Below are positions 31,608 through 36,691 of a stretch of 64,000 nt of DNA, piece by piece (within the stretch, counting starts at the first letter, position 1; every line of letters begins with the position of its first letter). The notes under the pieces are model-generated. The model saw only the letters and a list, made by a program, of their open reading frames with translations, was not told the origin of the DNA and searched no databases. The stretch spans positions 3,782,001 through 3,846,000 of the forward strand of contig NZ_AP022573.1 in assembly GCF_010729105.1 (NCBI RefSeq). Direction: 5' to 3'. Made by a program: the position numbers and the translations under genes. This DNA is from Mycobacterium saskatchewanense. GTDB taxonomy: Bacteria; Actinomycetota; Actinomycetes; Mycobacteriales; Mycobacteriaceae.

Positions 31608-33611
31608 GTGCGCCGGATCGGCCGGCTGGCGATCTGGGACCAGCCCGAACGGCGCAGCGGCATCCCCGCGTTGGACGGGTTGCGCGCGATCGCGGTGGCG
31701 CTGGTGCTGGTGGGGCACGGCGGCATCGCCGGCGTCACCGGCGGGTTCATCGGTGTGGACGTCTTCTTCGTCCTCAGCGGGTTCCTGATCACGTCGCTGC
31801 TGCTGGACGAACTGGGCCGCACCGGCCGTATCGACCTGAAGGGCTTCTGGGTTCGGCGGGCGCGCCGCCTGCTGCCGGCCCTGGTGCTCATGGTGCTCAC
31901 CGTCGCCGCGACCCGCCAGCTCCTTCCGGACCGGGCGCTCACCGGTCTGCGCGACGACGCGATCGCGGCGTTCCTCTGGGTGGCCAACTGGCGCTTCGTC
32001 GCCCAGAAGACCGATTACTTCACCCAGGGCGCCCCGCCGTCACCCCTGCAACACACCTGGTCGCTCGGGGTTGAGGAGCAGTACTACATCGTCTGGCCGG
32101 TCCTGCTGGTCGCGGTCACCCTCCTCCTGGCCTTCCGCGCGAGGCGCCGCCGCACCCGCGCGACCGTGGGCGCGGTGCGGTTTGCCACCTTCCTCATCGC
32201 CACGGCAGGGGCGCTGGCCTCCGCGGCGGTGGCGGTCCTGCTCACGTCGGACGCGACCCGCGATCGCGTCTACTTCGGCACCGACACCCGAGCGCAGGCG
32301 CTGCTCATCGGGGCCGCCGCGGCGGCGTTGCTGGTCAGGGATTGGCCTTCGCTGAACCGCGGATGGTGCCTGATCGGCACCAGGTGGGGACGGCGGGTCG
32401 CCCGCGCGCTGCCGGCGCTCGGTGTGGCCGGCCTGGCGGCGGCGACGCACTTCGCGACGGGCGGCGCGGCAGAGTTCCGCCACGGGCTGCTGTTGGGTGT
32501 TGCCGTCGCGGCCGTCCTGGTGGTGGCGCCCGTGGCACTGGAGCAGCGTGGGGCCGTCGCCCGCATGCTGGCCTCACCGCCCCTGGTCTGGCTGGGAACC
32601 ATCTCCTACGGCGTGTACCTGTGGCACTGGCCAATCTTTCTCGCGCTCAACGGCGAACGCACAGGTTGGGCCGGTCTCCCGCTGTTCGCGGCCCGGTGTG
32701 GGGCCACCGTGGCGGTGGCCGCGGCATCGTGGTGGCTCATCGAACAGCCCGTCCGCCGCTGGCGGCCGGCGCGGGTGCCGCTGCTGCCGCTGGCGGCGGC
32801 CACGGTGGGCAGCGCCGCCGCGATCACCTTGCTGGTCGTCCCGGTCGGCACGGGGCCCGGTCTGAGCGAGGCGGGTTTGCCGCCGGGCGTCTCGGCCGTC
32901 GCGGCGGTCTCGCCGGCCCCGCCGGGCGGGAGCCAGCCCGTGGGTCCCCGAGACCCCAACCGCCCGTTCACCGTGTCGGTGTTCGGTGATTCGATCGGGT
33001 GGACCTGGATGCACTACCTGCCTCCCACGCCCGGGTTCGCGTTCCTCGACCACACCGTGATCGGCTGCAGCCTGGTGCGGGGCACGCCGTATCGGTACAT
33101 CGGCCAGACGCTGGAACAGCGACCCGAATGCGACGGCTGGCCCATCAGGTGGTCGACCCAGGTCAGCCGGGACCAGCCGGACGTGGCGCTGCTGATCATC
33201 GGCCGCTGGGAAACCGTCGATCGCGTCAACGAGGGGCAATGGACCCACATCGGCGACCCGACCTTCGACGCGTACCTCAACGGGGAACTCGAGCGGGCCC
33301 TGAACATCGTCAGTTCCCCGGGAGTCCGCGTGGTGGTCGCCACCGTGCCGTACAGCCGGGGCGGAGAGAAGCCGGACGGCCGCCTCTATCCGGAGGACCA
33401 GCCCGACCGGGTCAATCTGTGGAACACCATGCTGCGCAAGACCATCAGCCATCACCCGGGCGTGCAGATCCTGGATCTGAACAAAAAGCTCTGCCCCGAC
33501 GGGGTTTACACCCCGAAGGTGGACGGCATCAAGGTGCGCAGCGACGGCGTCCACCTCACCCCCGAAGGCGTGAAGTGGCTGACGCCGTGGCTCGAGGAGT
33601 CCCTGCGTTAA
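31608..33611 (+). CDS. Membrane acyltransferase with SGNH domain (Rv0111-like)
   Basis: A 667-residue protein. The acyltransferase-3 domain (residues about 15-420) has a first block IPALDGLRAIAVALVLVGHG, about ten membrane helices, SLGVEEQYYIVWP and SYGVYLWHWP. A periplasmic SGNH-hydrolase-like domain follows: block I FGDSIGW with Ser462, and near the end DGVHLTPEG with the Asp-x-x-His pair. Such OafA-like fusions O-acylate cell-surface glycans or lipids. The GTG at 31608 is the start. It is the family and positional counterpart of Rv0111, resuming synteny after the catabolic block. Its TAA shares TTAA with the stop of the convergent methyltransferase. Confidence 0.9.
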   Translation: MRRIGRLAIWDQPERRSGIPALDGLRAIAVALVLVGHGGIAGVTGGFIGVDVFFVLSGFLITSLLLDELGRTGRIDLKGFWVRRARRLLPALVLMVLTVAATRQLLPDRALTGLRDDAIAAFLWVANWRFVAQKTDYFTQGAPPSPLQHTWSLGVEEQYYIVWPVLLVAVTLLLAFRARRRRTRATVGAVRFATFLIATAGALASAAVAVLLTSDATRDRVYFGTDTRAQALLIGAAAAALLVRDWPSLNRGWCLIGTRWGRRVARALPALGVAGLAAATHFATGGAAEFRHGLLLGVAVAAVLVVAPVALEQRGAVARMLASPPLVWLGTISYGVYLWHWPIFLALNGERTGWAGLPLFAARCGATVAVAAASWWLIEQPVRRWRPARVPLLPLAAATVGSAAAITLLVVPVGTGPGLSEAGLPPGVSAVAAVSPAPPGGSQPVGPRDPNRPFTVSVFGDSIGWTWMHYLPPTPGFAFLDHTVIGCSLVRGTPYRYIGQTLEQRPECDGWPIRWSTQVSRDQPDVALLIIGRWETVDRVNEGQWTHIGDPTFDAYLNGELERALNIVSSPGVRVVVATVPYSRGGEKPDGRLYPEDQPDRVNLWNTMLRKTISHHPGVQILDLNKKLCPDGVYTPKVDGIKVRSDGVHLTPEGVKWLTPWLEESLR

Positions 33612-34267
33612 TCGCCCGTGCGGCAGCTGATTTCCATGCTGTCGCTGTCGCGGACGAGGAAGTTGAAACTGACGTAGCCGTTCGCTGGGTTGCGCACCCG
33701 GTCCAGGTACGGCTGGGTGTCGGCCGCACTGGTGTTGTCCGCGACGATCAGTACCCCCGCGGAGAACCGCGGTTCGAGCAACTCGATCACCGGCAGGTAC
33801 AGGTCTTTCCAACCGTCGAGCAGCACGAAGTCGACGGAACCGTCCAGGTCGGCCAGCGTGGAAAGAGCGTCCCCCTCCAAGATGGTGATCGCGTCGTCCA
33901 GTCCGGTCTCGGCGAACGTTTGCTTCGCGGCGGCGATCTTGGTGGCGCTGAGTTCGGTGGTTACCACCCGCCCGGCGCCGTTGTCGCGGACACCCGCCGC
34001 CAGATGGATCGCGGAAATGCCGAAGGACATCCCGAATTCGACGACGGTCGCCGGACGGGTCGCCCGCACCAACGAATACAGCAGCCGGCCCGCATCGGGG
34101 GTCACCGGGATGTAGAACTCACTCATCGCCTCGGCGCGCTCCTGCGCGTTCATCGGGCGATCGAAATCGCCGCGCCGCTCGCGCAATAATGACATCTGGC
34201 TCTTCGCTTCGCCGTACATCCGGTCGAGTACCGTCGCAACCTTGGGATCCTGCAGAGTGTTCGCCAT
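33608..34267 (-). CDS. SAM-dependent O-methyltransferase
   Basis: A 219-residue class I methyltransferase of the caffeoyl-CoA/catechol O-methyltransferase group. The SAM-binding motif is VVEFGMSFGISAIHLA, followed by GRVVTTELSATKIAAA, then VDFVLLDGWKDLYLPVIELL and LIVADNTSAADTQPYLD. In this group the two Asp residues (LLDGWKD and ADN) bind a metal and orient a catechol-like substrate. M. tuberculosis Rv0187 is a similar enzyme. The ATG at 34267 is chosen because longer readings cross the divergent promoter and riboswitch. Substrate unknown. Confidence 0.82.
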   Translation of the reverse strand: MANTLQDPKVATVLDRMYGEAKSQMSLLRERRGDFDRPMNAQERAEAMSEFYIPVTPDAGRLLYSLVRATRPATVVEFGMSFGISAIHLAAGVRDNGAGRVVTTELSATKIAAAKQTFAETGLDDAITILEGDALSTLADLDGSVDFVLLDGWKDLYLPVIELLEPRFSAGVLIVADNTSAADTQPYLDRVRNPANGYVSFNFLVRDSDSMEISCRTGD

Positions 34268-34303
34268 GCTTCCGAGGGTAGGCGCTCCCGGCGACACGCT
34301 CGT

Positions 34304-34332
34304 TTGACCGGTTCGGATCCGCGGTGCAAGAT
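34304..34332 (+). promoter_or_regulatory. Probable promoter of the M-box transcript
   Basis: TTGACC (34304-34309) and CAAGAT (34327-34332) are separated by 17 bases. The expected transcription start near 34339 falls a few bases before the first helix of the M-box at 34343. Confidence 0.5.
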
Positions 34333-34342
34333 GGTGGGGCAA

Positions 34343-34509
34343 GCACCTCGGTAGGTGAGGCGTCTGCATGGACACAGGCCACTGACCCCGAACGTCGAGA
34401 GACGCCCCGGGTCAGGACAGCTCTTCCCGGACCCAAGGGTTGAGCCCAAGTGGCTTCCGGAGTAATCCAGATACGCCGTGCAGTGCCGAAGCTCCGACGA
34501 GAGGGGTGC
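34343..34509 (+). promoter_or_regulatory. M-box (ykoK) magnesium riboswitch
   Basis: The sequence carries the conserved blocks of the M-box aptamer in order: GGTGAGGC (34354-34361), AACGTCGAGAGACGCC (34391-34406), then ACGCCGTGCAGTGC and CGAAGCTCCGACGAGAG (34473-34502). The closing helix is formed by GCACC (34343-34347) with GGTGC (34505-34509). M-boxes fold around several Mg2+ ions and switch off genes for Mg2+ uptake when magnesium is plentiful. In M. tuberculosis they precede Rv1535 and PE20. Here it heads a transcript with two small reading frames and an Nramp-type transporter. I see no U-rich terminator, so the switch may act through Rho or through ribosome access. Confidence 0.88.
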
Positions 34510-34606
34510 GGTCGGTCGGTTCGCCACCGTCCATTCGTGCCTCTTCCGTTCAGGTGAAATGTGACGACACCCGCGTGTGTCCCGGCCGTGAGGAGGTGAG
34601 GGCGAG

Positions 34607-34690
34607 ATGAGCGAGACCAGTCCGAGCGATAGTCCGTATCCCAATTCCATTTCGACCCGATCCGGTTCCGGCATGCCCTCCGTGGCTTGA
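34607..34690 (+). CDS. Putative 27-residue Ser/Pro-rich leader peptide
   Basis: An ATG at 34607 is preceded by GAGGAGGTGAGGG (AGGAGG at 34591-34596) and opens a 27-codon frame beginning MSETSPSDSPYPNS and ending at TGA 34688-34690. Eight of 27 residues are Ser and four are Pro. It lies between the M-box and the next small gene, where Pro-rich leader peptides sense conditions in other Mg2+ transporter genes (mgtL upstream of mgtA in Salmonella). Coding status is unproven; the strong ribosome site is the main support. No relation to mgtL by sequence is claimed. Confidence 0.4.
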   Translation: MSETSPSDSPYPNSISTRSGSGMPSVA

Positions 34691-34737
34691 CGATTCGAGC
34701 ACGCGAGCCGATCGGCCCTGCACGACAGGAGAAGATC

Positions 34738-34926
34738 ATGGCTTTCACTACTGCACACCGCTTTTCTGGCGCATCGCTGTGGCGTGGAATCGCCGGCGCG
34801 TTCAGCGCGCGCTGCCGGCTGACCCCCGAGGAGCGTGCCAACCTGTATGTCTCGCGGATGCCCATCGCGGTGGTGACGGCCTCGCTGGGCGGCCATCCGT
34901 CGGCCGGCCCGGGCGACCACCGCTGA
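34738..34926 (+). CDS. Small 62-residue protein downstream of the M-box
   Basis: The ATG at 34738 has AGGAGA at 34727-34732. The predicted protein begins MAFTTAHRFSGASLWRGIAG, continues with a basic Arg-rich turn (AFSARCRLTPEERANLYVSR) and a short hydrophobic stretch (MPIAVVTASLGG), and ends polar. It has no confident membrane helix and I recognise no family. In M. tuberculosis a similarly small gene of unknown function (Rv1535) follows an M-box, which raises the possibility of a conserved small partner; this needs comparison. The transporter gene starts 43 bp downstream and is likely on the same transcript. Confidence 0.6.
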   Translation: MAFTTAHRFSGASLWRGIAGAFSARCRLTPEERANLYVSRMPIAVVTASLGGHPSAGPGDHR

Positions 34927-34969
34927 TCGGTCTCATCCCTCGAACTGGCCTGCGAGAGCGAAACATCCG

Positions 34970-36691
34970 ATGACCTCCCTGTCCACCGGCGGCGACCTCC
35001 GCAGCGCGGATGCCGACATCGTCGGCGCGTTCGGTCGAATCCAGCGCGACGGCGCCGGCGCGTACACGGGCCGGTGGCGGCGCCTGCGGACCCTGATGGT
35101 CATCTCCGGGCCGGGATTGATCGTGATGGTGGGCGACAACGACGCCGGCGGCGTCGCAACCTACGCACAGGCCGGGCAGAACTACGGGATGAGCCTGCTG
35201 TGGACGCTGACGATGCTCATCCCGGTGCTGTACGTGAACCAGGAGATGGTGCTCAGGCTCGGCGCGGTCGCCCGCGTCGGGCACGCGCGGTTGATCTTCG
35301 CCCGCTTCGGGAGATTCTGGGGTGCGTTCAGCGTCGGCGATCTACTGATCCTCAACGCCCTGACCATCGTCACCGAATTCATCGGCGTCTCAATGGCGTT
35401 GGATTTCCTCGGATGTCCGAAGGTCATCGCGATACCGGCCGCCGCCGTGCTGCTGTTCGCTGTGGTGGCCGGGGGGTCGTTCCGGCGCTGGGAGGCGCTC
35501 ATGTTCCTGCTGATCGCGGTGAACGTGTTGATCATCCCGATGGTGCTGCTGGTCCATCCCACCCTCAACCGCACCGCCGCCGGGCTGCTCCCGCATTTCT
35601 CGGGAGGCCTCGACTCCACGGTGCTGCTATTGGTCGTGGCGATCGTCGGCACCACCGTCGCGCCCTGGCAGCTGTTCTTCCAGCAGTCCAACGTGGTCGA
35701 CAAGCGCATCACGGCCCGCTGGATCCCCTACGCCCGTGCGGATTTGATCATCGGCATCGTGGTGGTGGTGGTCGGGGCGACGGCCCTGATGGCGGTGACG
35801 GCCTTCGGGTTGGCCGGCACCGCCGACGTCGGGCACTTCACCGACGCCGGTGCGGTCGCGTCCGCGCTGACCAAACACCTCGGCAGCACGGTCGGCATGC
35901 TGTTCGCCGTCATCCTGCTGGACGCATCGCTGATCGGCGCCAACGCCATCGGCCTGGCCACCACCTACGCCATCGGCGACGCGATGGGCAGGCGACACTC
36001 TCTGCATTGGAAGATCAGCGAGGCACCGCTGTTCTACGGCGGTTACGCGGCGCTGCTTGCGGTGTCGGCAGCGGTGGCCTTCAGCCCCGACCACATCCTC
36101 GGGCTGGTGACCCAGGGCGTGCAGGCGCTCGCCGGAGTCCTGCTGCCGTCGGCCACCGTGTTCTTGGTGCTGCTCTGTAACGACCGGGCGGTGCTGGGGC
36201 CGTGGTCGAACACGGTGCGGCAGAACATCGTCGCCTGGGCGATCTTGTGGTCGCTCGTGCTGCTGTCGCTGGCGTTGACGGCGACCACCTTCTTCCCGAC
36301 CCTGTCCACCGGCACGATCGAGGCCGGCCTCGCTGCCGGCGCGGCGACCGGCATCGCCGGTGGGGCCGCCGCAATCATCACCGGCAATCGCCAGAAGGCA
36401 AGGCGCGCCGCGGAGCTCACCGTCGGGTCCCTCGGGGGTGGGCTGGACCCGCACGATGTCGACGAGCTGGACGACACCCCGTCGCTCACGCGGGCCGAGC
36501 GCCGAGCCGTGCGTCGGCAGGACCGCATGTCGTGGCAGACCCCCGACCTGGCCGGGTTGGCGCGTCCGGCCATGTCGCCGATCCGCCGGGCGGGCCTGTT
36601 CACCCTGCGCGGCTACCTGGTGGTGGCCGTGGCGCTGGTCGTCGTCAAGATCGTGCAGGCGGCCGTCGTGGGGCCCGCCAGTTCACTGTGA
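34970..36691 (+). CDS. Nramp-family transporter with altered metal site, probable Mg2+ importer
   Basis: A 573-residue membrane protein with about 11-12 helices and a C-terminal cytoplasmic tail containing one more helix. The Nramp architecture is clear (GPGLIVMVG start, conserved TM6 region). However, the TM1 metal motif DPGN is D58-A-G-G61, and the TM6 motif MPH is A231-P-W. The Met that makes Nramp proteins prefer Mn/Fe is thus Ala. This substitution is described for NRAMP-related magnesium transporters. An M-box Mg2+ riboswitch heads the transcript, which independently points to magnesium. The ATG at 34970 is used. The 3' end overlaps the convergent oxidoreductase by 9 bp. Classical mycobacterial MntH (Rv0924c) is a different, canonical protein. 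Confidence 0.85.
   Translation: MTSLSTGGDLRSADADIVGAFGRIQRDGAGAYTGRWRRLRTLMVISGPGLIVMVGDNDAGGVATYAQAGQNYGMSLLWTLTMLIPVLYVNQEMVLRLGAVARVGHARLIFARFGRFWGAFSVGDLLILNALTIVTEFIGVSMALDFLGCPKVIAIPAAAVLLFAVVAGGSFRRWEALMFLLIAVNVLIIPMVLLVHPTLNRTAAGLLPHFSGGLDSTVLLLVVAIVGTTVAPWQLFFQQSNVVDKRITARWIPYARADLIIGIVVVVVGATALMAVTAFGLAGTADVGHFTDAGAVASALTKHLGSTVGMLFAVILLDASLIGANAIGLATTYAIGDAMGRRHSLHWKISEAPLFYGGYAALLAVSAAVAFSPDHILGLVTQGVQALAGVLLPSATVFLVLLCNDRAVLGPWSNTVRQNIVAWAILWSLVLLSLALTATTFFPTLSTGTIEAGLAAGAATGIAGGAAAIITGNRQKARRAAELTVGSLGGGLDPHDVDELDDTPSLTRAERRAVRRQDRMSWQTPDLAGLARPAMSPIRRAGLFTLRGYLVVAVALVVVKIVQAAVVGPASSL

Follow-up and report, generated by a model that had tools for sequence, protein, structure and literature searches.

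The window analysed here is a stretch of 64,000 nucleotides (nt) of the Mycobacterium saskatchewanense genome (contig NZ_AP022573.1, genome coordinates C1:3782001-3846000). In it, an M-box, a Mg2+ riboswitch, precedes a transporter gene of the Nramp family. The elements of this locus, in window coordinates and all on the plus strand, are the following:

34304..34332 (+): promoter-like pair TTGACC - 17 nt - CAAGAT, ending 8 nt 5' of the aptamer (script over 49 loci)
34340..34512 (+): M-box (ykoK) Mg2+ riboswitch aptamer (RF00380, 142.1 bits)
34499..34506 (+): GAGAGGGG, the closing-helix 3' strand of the aptamer, occupying the place of the first Shine-Dalgarno sequence (SD1) of the published pe20 model (Rfam alignment, compared with PMC12810186)
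34506..34610 (+): upstream ORF 1 (uORF1; ORF, open reading frame), GTG start, 34 codons; its stop overlaps the start of uORF2 (ATGA)
34540..34547 (+): CCTCTTCC, a patch of pyrimidines where the published model has its anti-Shine-Dalgarno sequence (anti-SD)
34566..34581 (+): small hairpin GACAC..GTGTC 5' of SD2, seen by eye in the alignment; locus L032 has GGCGC..GCGCC there
34590..34601 (+): second Shine-Dalgarno sequence (SD2), GAGGAGGTGAGG, from the sequence and the alignment
34607..34690 (+): uORF2, an Rv1805A-like leader ORF, MSETSPSDSPYPNSISTRSGSGMPSVA, 27 codons
34738..34926 (+): ORF3, a 62-codon small protein with the motif LTPxERANLYVSRMPIAVVTASLGGHPS
34970..36691 (+): NRMT-type Nramp-related transporter, 573 amino acids
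35141..35152 (+): metal-site codons D58-A59-G60-G61 of transmembrane segment 1 (TM1), DPGN in MntH
35651..35668 (+): TM6 metal-site codons T228-T229-V230-A231-P232-W233, ATVMPH in the genome's own MntH

The aptamer is matched by the Rfam M-box covariance model over its full length (model positions 1-169 of 169; E 2.7e-33, gathering score 44). An earlier sequence-only reading of this DNA had placed the M-box at 34343, three bases off the start found. Three M-boxes are present in the genome, a single contig of 6.0 Mb: those at 312649 and 731565, and the one studied here, at 3816340.

Judged by its sequence, the transporter is to be classed within the Nramp family as an NRMT (magnesium type) and not as an MntH. 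It matches the Pfam Nramp family with an E-value of 9.2e-68; its best match among solved structures is EleNRMT (7qia; 182.5 bits, E 1.1e-52; 51.5 bits for the MntH ScaDMT), and the NCBIfam MntH model yields 85.8 bits, far under its cut-off of 430. In the alignment, DAGG stands at the MntH DPGN of TM1 and APW at the MntH MPH of TM6, the canonical MntH motifs being absent; the sequence-only reading had singled out these replacements, with Gly61 and Ala231, and they fit the EleNRMT site. That site comprises Asp55, Gly58, Thr224, an Ala for Met, a Trp for one TM6b His, Glu133 and Gln379 (PMC8806188). Here the corresponding features are Asp D58, Gly-for-Asn G61 in TM1, and Thr-for-Ala T228 and Ala-for-Met A231 in TM6; the proton-coupling histidines of TM6b are gone, W233 and Q238 standing in their places. 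Across an alignment of 28 homologues, D58, E136, T228, A231, W233, Q238 and Q385 are invariant.

The AlphaFold2 model of the transporter (pLDDT 80.8, pTM 0.82) has EleNRMT as its top Foldseek match (E 6.7e-17), while VIA-align Z scores on this model do not tell NRMT apart from other Nramps. The M. saskatchewanense protein shares with the E. lenta one (PDB 7qia/7qji), its best match by sequence and by Foldseek, the Nramp fold and the Asp, Gly, Thr, Ala and Trp site residues. It differs from it in overall sequence (31% identity), in the second TM6b His, which is Asn there and Gln238 here, and in ~130 extra C-terminal residues. Within these residues (window 36299-36691), past the EleNRMT-aligned part, the model places a low-confidence linker at 489-502 and a further helix at 537-567.

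A tree of 31 rows was built by maximum likelihood; its canonical MntH rows are ScaDMT, a B. fragilis protein and the genome's own L004, and the C. acetobutylicum NrmT is absent from it. The MntH set is separated by a 100/100 branch, the transporter falls on the EleNRMT side, and grouping it with MntH is rejected (approximately unbiased test, p-AU 0.007). Four Nramp-family genes are found in this genome. L004 is a separate canonical MntH with DPGN/MPH motifs. L005 (C1:1430962 region; 8-1261 and 835-2934) is a second NRMT paralogue, 59% identical to the studied transporter, directly 3' of a protein with MgtE_N and CBS domains and without the MgtE channel domain; the Rfam search found no M-box at L005. 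L007 (C1:4526729 region, 1351-2643) has DTDAG in TM1 and MPW in TM6: the Met is kept, the next His is lost, and by motif it is intermediate between MntH and NRMT. The fourth is the studied gene.

The association between the M-box and this transporter is conserved. From a scan of genome contigs the best 80 loci were retained (more exist), of which 77 (L008-L084) were searched with Rfam; a same-strand M-box lies upstream at 48 of them. Where identity is 64% or more (L008-L052, from Mycobacterium, Nocardia, Streptomyces and others), the figure is 43/45, the two loci without it being L012, which has only 573 bases upstream, and L042. In a sample of 148 genomes of the genus, 45 hold an orthologue of the transporter (>750 bits); an M-box is present in every one of these and in 31 of the 103 without the orthologue. 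These figures are co-occurrence at genome level and not independent of descent.

M-boxes themselves occur in several arrangements. Divergent back-to-back M-boxes lie a few hundred bases apart at L051 (2001-2179 on the minus strand, 2384-2563 on the plus strand), and similar divergent pairs are seen at G552:C12, G590:C50 and G060:C1. Three same-strand M-boxes within ~9 kb are found at G071:C11 (96031, 100617, 102909) and G117:C1 (4115026, 4121214, 4123497), with leaders that continue into PE/PPE-like ORFs.

Operons in which an M-box precedes an NrmT gene are known from Shin et al. 2014 (PMC4072509), who found most of them in Clostridia and Deltaproteobacteria. In that work, Mg2+ transport was shown for the M-box-linked NrmT of C. 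acetobutylicum, and an M-box-less NrmT acted as a Mn2+ transporter; because of the latter, the M-box itself counts as evidence for Mg2+. Such NrmT operons, of which C. acetobutylicum Ca_c0685 is an example, resemble the studied locus in having an M-box before a magnesium-branch Nramp gene, the M-box predicting Mg2+ specificity. They differ in that an MgtE-like fragment is often alongside and that the platform is described as an intrinsic terminator, whereas none was found here; in M. saskatchewanense, the switch is separated from the transporter by two conserved small ORFs. It is very likely, on sequence grounds, that the locus is a Mg2+-repressed operon for Mg2+ uptake, and an inducible Mg2+ importer is predicted in many non-tuberculous mycobacteria.

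By this reading, repression would proceed as follows. At high Mg2+ the aptamer (34340-34512) would fold and its closing helix would sequester SD1; translation of the leader and transcription into the operon would be held back, probably via uORF2 initiation and Rho, by analogy with pe20 of M. tuberculosis. For the pe20 leader, reporter data and the involvement of Rho have been published, and M. tuberculosis uORF2 copies are translated in vivo (PMC12810186). By the same analogy uORF2 would be the directly controlled ORF, Rho stopping transcription while it is silent. At low Mg2+, uORF2, ORF3 and the NRMT transporter would be produced, the last importing Mg2+ and probably Mn2+ also. The published SD1/anti-SD/SD2 platform is adopted by analogy only, because the pairing seldom exceeds shuffles: a duplex of SD1 with the pyrimidine patch, which is present in most NRMT leaders inspected, reaches p<=0.05 at 4/25 loci, and the duplex of the patch with SD2 gives p 0.175 at the studied locus (L027 and L030, having no SD2 match, were left out).

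Several observations weigh against a magnesium-repressed, magnesium-importing operon. The duplex of pyrimidine patch and SD2 beats shuffled spacers (p<=0.05) at 3/25 loci only, and no intrinsic terminator was detected in 34200-35000. At the loci of 49-54% identity among the best 80, an M-box is present at 5 of the 32 searched. G61 is replaced by Ala in 7 of the ~50%-identity relatives among the alignment rows shown, and two such relatives carry M-boxes (L060, L067). In the free tree the Met-bearing L007 falls between EleNRMT and the remaining NRMT-side rows; a topology with the NRMTs in one clade and L007 outside it is not rejected (p-AU 0.23). High-affinity Mg2+ transport is thought to be limited to a subset of NrmT proteins (PMC4072509), and Mn2+ may be carried as well, since EleNRMT also transports it (PMC8806188). 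Finally, the reading is built on sequence, from which expression and transport in M. saskatchewanense are inferred.

The name of the metal requires some attention. D'Halluin et al. 2026 (PMC12810186) divide mycobacterial M-boxes into pe20-, Mn2+-, rv1535- and mgtE-types, the Mn2+-type having 'manganese transporter-type' genes downstream and being absent from M. tuberculosis; a term search of the main text finds neither NrmT, MntH nor Nocardia. Some homologues of the transporter carry 'manganese transporter' as their database name, so the Mn2+-type very probably corresponds to the NRMT class. It would then share with the studied locus the order M-box, uORF1, uORF2, Nramp-type gene, and differ from it in its manganese label, whereas the proteins here are NRMT and the arrangement extends to Nocardia and Streptomycetaceae. 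The metal of a mycobacterial riboswitch-operon class has therefore probably been misassigned, NRMT proteins standing where manganese transporters were named. Misannotation of the gene had been anticipated by the sequence-only reading and is real, as some of those so named are close homologues. A comparable pair of MgtE fragment and NRMT, with an M-box, is seen at L206, and L233 is similar in appearance; because L206 shows this pair behind an M-box, the published 'mgtE-type' class may consist of a sensor fragment plus NRMT.

Taken at face value, the manganese labels would mean that the transporter carries manganese and that the M-box senses or serves Mn2+ or several divalent ions. Besides the database name on some homologues and the class label of PMC12810186, it can be argued for this that EleNRMT moves Mn2+ too (PMC8806188) and that an A. 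capsulatum NrmT lacking an M-box complemented a Mn2+ defect and, only weakly, a Mg2+ defect (PMC4072509). It is nevertheless improbable: the soft Met ligand has become Ala231 and the TM6 histidines Trp and Gln, the NCBIfam MntH cut-off is missed widely with a proper MntH elsewhere in the genome, and the M-box linkage holds at 43/45 close loci.

As to novelty, the sequence-only reading was only partly right. It had held an Mg2+ riboswitch before an Nramp-family gene not to be a described mycobacterial arrangement, which the Mn2+-type mycobacterial class listed in PMC12810186 and the M-box/NrmT operons of PMC4072509 contradict; its view of the function (a true M-box, an NRMT-type site, a protein that is not MntH, to which the conserved linkage is now added) holds as far as sequence can tell. 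In the literature searched, at listing level, there is no report of NRMT genes preceded by M-boxes in Nocardia or Streptomyces. The M-box/NRMT operon is of a known kind. What is new lies between switch and transporter, namely ORF3 and uORF2 with its near-frozen rare codons, and it is the actinobacterial leader ORF that merits further attention.

Leader ORFs of the uORF2/Rv1805A kind are recognised by a strong SD2 some 80-110 nt past the aptamer and by a conserved N-terminal core with Pro. At the studied locus, which fits this description, the aptamer ends at 34512, SD2 follows at 34590, and uORF2 starts with the ATG at 34607; its core is SDSPYP, with acidic and Pro residues E3, P6, D8 and P10 in the first ten codons. 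Each of the three M-boxes of the genome precedes a uORF2-like ORF, of the types SSSDSPDR, SSDDSPYP and the studied SDSPYP. The SSDDSPYP ORF is followed by a PPE-like gene, and the SSSDSPDR ORF by a gene that we take to be Rv1535-like. The uORF1/uORF2 overlap (ATGA) is present at 20/106 loci examined.

The occurrence of uORF2 was counted over 202 M-box leaders: 48 from the NRMT scan, 54 further M-box loci and 100 chosen among the listed M-boxes, the clipped L104, L105 and L110 being excluded. By a strict definition (small ORF, ribosome-binding motif, D[SPDEG]P within codons 2-11), it is found on the sense strand in 99/202 leaders and on the antisense strand in 0/202; dinucleotide shuffles give a mean of 1.6 (maximum 5 over 20 runs), and the region 800 nt further on gives 5/202. 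P-values computed from these counts overstate the significance, because the loci are related, some from near-duplicate species; the motif was also first seen in the same data. A wider definition, which adds DDPP, DEPP and M[DE]..PG starts, recognises uORF2 in 45/57 NRMT, 19/20 ileS/Rv1535-type, 6/11 cation-ATPase (C5), 2/11 MgtE (C6), 1/10 C7, 1/1 PE and 31/68 unsorted leaders, and in 15/24 PPE leaders, a figure lowered by the exclusion of TTG starts. It leaves 9/10 C7 leaders (longest member an ABC permease), 9/11 C6, 5/11 C5 and 37/68 unsorted ones without a recognised uORF2; cluster C2, a mixture of MgtC and chance frames, was not used as a class. The ORF thus stands behind M-boxes of unrelated operons, and it occurs also outside mycobacteria.

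The uORF2/Rv1805A of the pe20 and rv1535 leaders resembles it in the position of SD2 after the aptamer and in a conserved Pro-bearing N-terminus. In the literature searched, Rv1805A is mentioned only in PMC12810186, where the peptide is called mycobacterium-specific; here it also occurs in Nocardia and other genera. For the GDSPYP type this specificity is contradicted by the Nocardia NRMT loci, where uORF2 (GDSPYPS) is present in 9/9, as well as under other genus codes of the family. Further leader ORFs are MDDPPSRY before a cation ATPase (L129, L131), MDDPPSRV before MgtC (L125), DCSSPGHS-like in Streptomyces and Kitasatospora, and DSEPGS/ESDPG at L089, L094 and L100, from another class of the phylum, perhaps Coriobacteriia. 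The DDPP, DCSSPGHS and ESDPG types resemble the GDSPYP type in their acidic and Pro residues and may be homologous to it. To note, at L089, L094 and L100 a terminator-like hairpin with a T run is seen by eye between the aptamer and the ORF (MDSEPGS or MESDPG), and an Nramp-like gene lies 3' of the leader ORF (at L100 by cluster only).

In the core of uORF2, codons as well as residues are conserved. Over 100 distinct sequences, Ser is AGT in 136/152 cases in the core and in 3/326 in the tail, Tyr is TAT in 78/78 core cases, and the other T/A-ending Ser codons are nearly absent from the core (TCT 1, TCA 0). In six presumed coding ORFs of the window, AGT makes up 12/172 Ser codons and TAT 14/74 Tyr codons. 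As core AGT and TAT use is nearly frozen in comparison with the tail and with these ORFs, the core is under constraint in its nucleotides as well as in its residues. The mycobacterial M-box leader ORF thus appears as a codon-constrained feature common to other actinobacteria and not as a mycobacterial gene.

A GAUA..UAUC hairpin in the core could have explained the frozen codons, but was dropped because several loci have GAC with TAT and no compensating change. RNAalifold on 21 mycobacterial NRMT leaders gives -18.0, within the range of column shuffles (mean -10.4, standard deviation 3.9, lowest -21.0 over 40 shuffles).

What uORF2 is conserved for may be viewed in three ways. It could encode a functional small protein, perhaps a partner of the transporter, and be kept for that protein only, as proposed in PMC12810186, which also reports an M-box-free copy, Rv0115A. 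This is quite conceivable, if a little short of an even chance. Against it, the ORF stands behind M-boxes of operons as unrelated as those of NRMT, PE/PPE, Rv1535/ileS, MgtE fragments and cation ATPases, mostly its N-terminal core is retained, and the synonymous sites of that core are near-frozen, unlike those of ORF3.

Alternatively, uORF2 could be a gate of the riboswitch and nothing else, its translation shielding Rho sites and its codon bias merely keeping the start region open; low-GC codons near a start codon favour initiation. Rho-dependent termination has been published for pe20, with a predicted Rho utilisation (rut) site 292-370 nt after the transcription start site (PMC12810186), which by position reckoning overlaps uORF2. 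A pure gate does not account well for the almost exclusive use of AGT over the other T/A-ending Ser codons, for the conservation of the acidic-Pro peptide core in itself, or for L089, L094 and L100, which still have an acidic-Pro uORF behind their terminator-like hairpin; it is a possible reading, about which some reserve is in order.

The third view is that uORF2 may be part of Mg2+ sensing. Many Actinomycetota M-box leaders would then hold a second, ribosome-based Mg2+ sensor that works, as MgtL and MgtQ do, through the nascent chain of the acidic/Pro leader ORF. This ORF would belong with the M-box and not with the downstream gene; aptamer and ribosome would report Mg2+ in tandem, and the rare AGT/TAT codons would be part of the device. 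It is considered since the composition, position and M-box linkage of uORF2 fit. In MgtL, low Mg2+ leads to ribosome drop-off at EPDP (PMC11282234), and in MgtQ, Asp2 and Glu5 promote mgtB translation (PMC8092293). Like uORF2, these E. coli/Salmonella peptides come from short leader ORFs that belong to a Mg2+ transporter and begin with acidic and Pro codons; the EPDP of MgtL occupies codons 2-5, whereas uORF2 has 1-2 acidic and 1-3 Pro residues within about codons 3-12. The likeness is one of composition and position, and the M-box-free Rv0115A (PMC12810186) counts against such a sensor, which is rather unlikely in our estimation.

ORF3 evolves, by its sequence, like an ordinary small protein. 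It has 253 homologues at E<=0.001, matches no Pfam or NCBIfam family, and shows ratios of nonsynonymous to synonymous differences (pN/pS) of 0.47-0.61 with pS of 0.42-0.64 in nine comparisons. It is present in 37/43 NRMT leaders of the named scan, in 4/11 cation-ATPase and 2/11 MgtE leaders, and in 0/24 PPE and 0/20 ileS leaders. Some mycobacterial copies are without the SLGGH tail.

Upstream of the aptamer, a loose TTGAC-type pair with a 16-19 nt spacer was found by the script at 35/49 loci. The generic promoter scan listed no promoter at the leader; it demands at least 4/6 matches per hexamer and missed the TTGACC/CAAGAT pair because CAAGAT has 3/6. A divergent O-methyltransferase ORF is called at 33608-34375 (-), its first GTG probably being overcalled; with its likely start at ~34267, the M-box promoter region would be free of that ORF.

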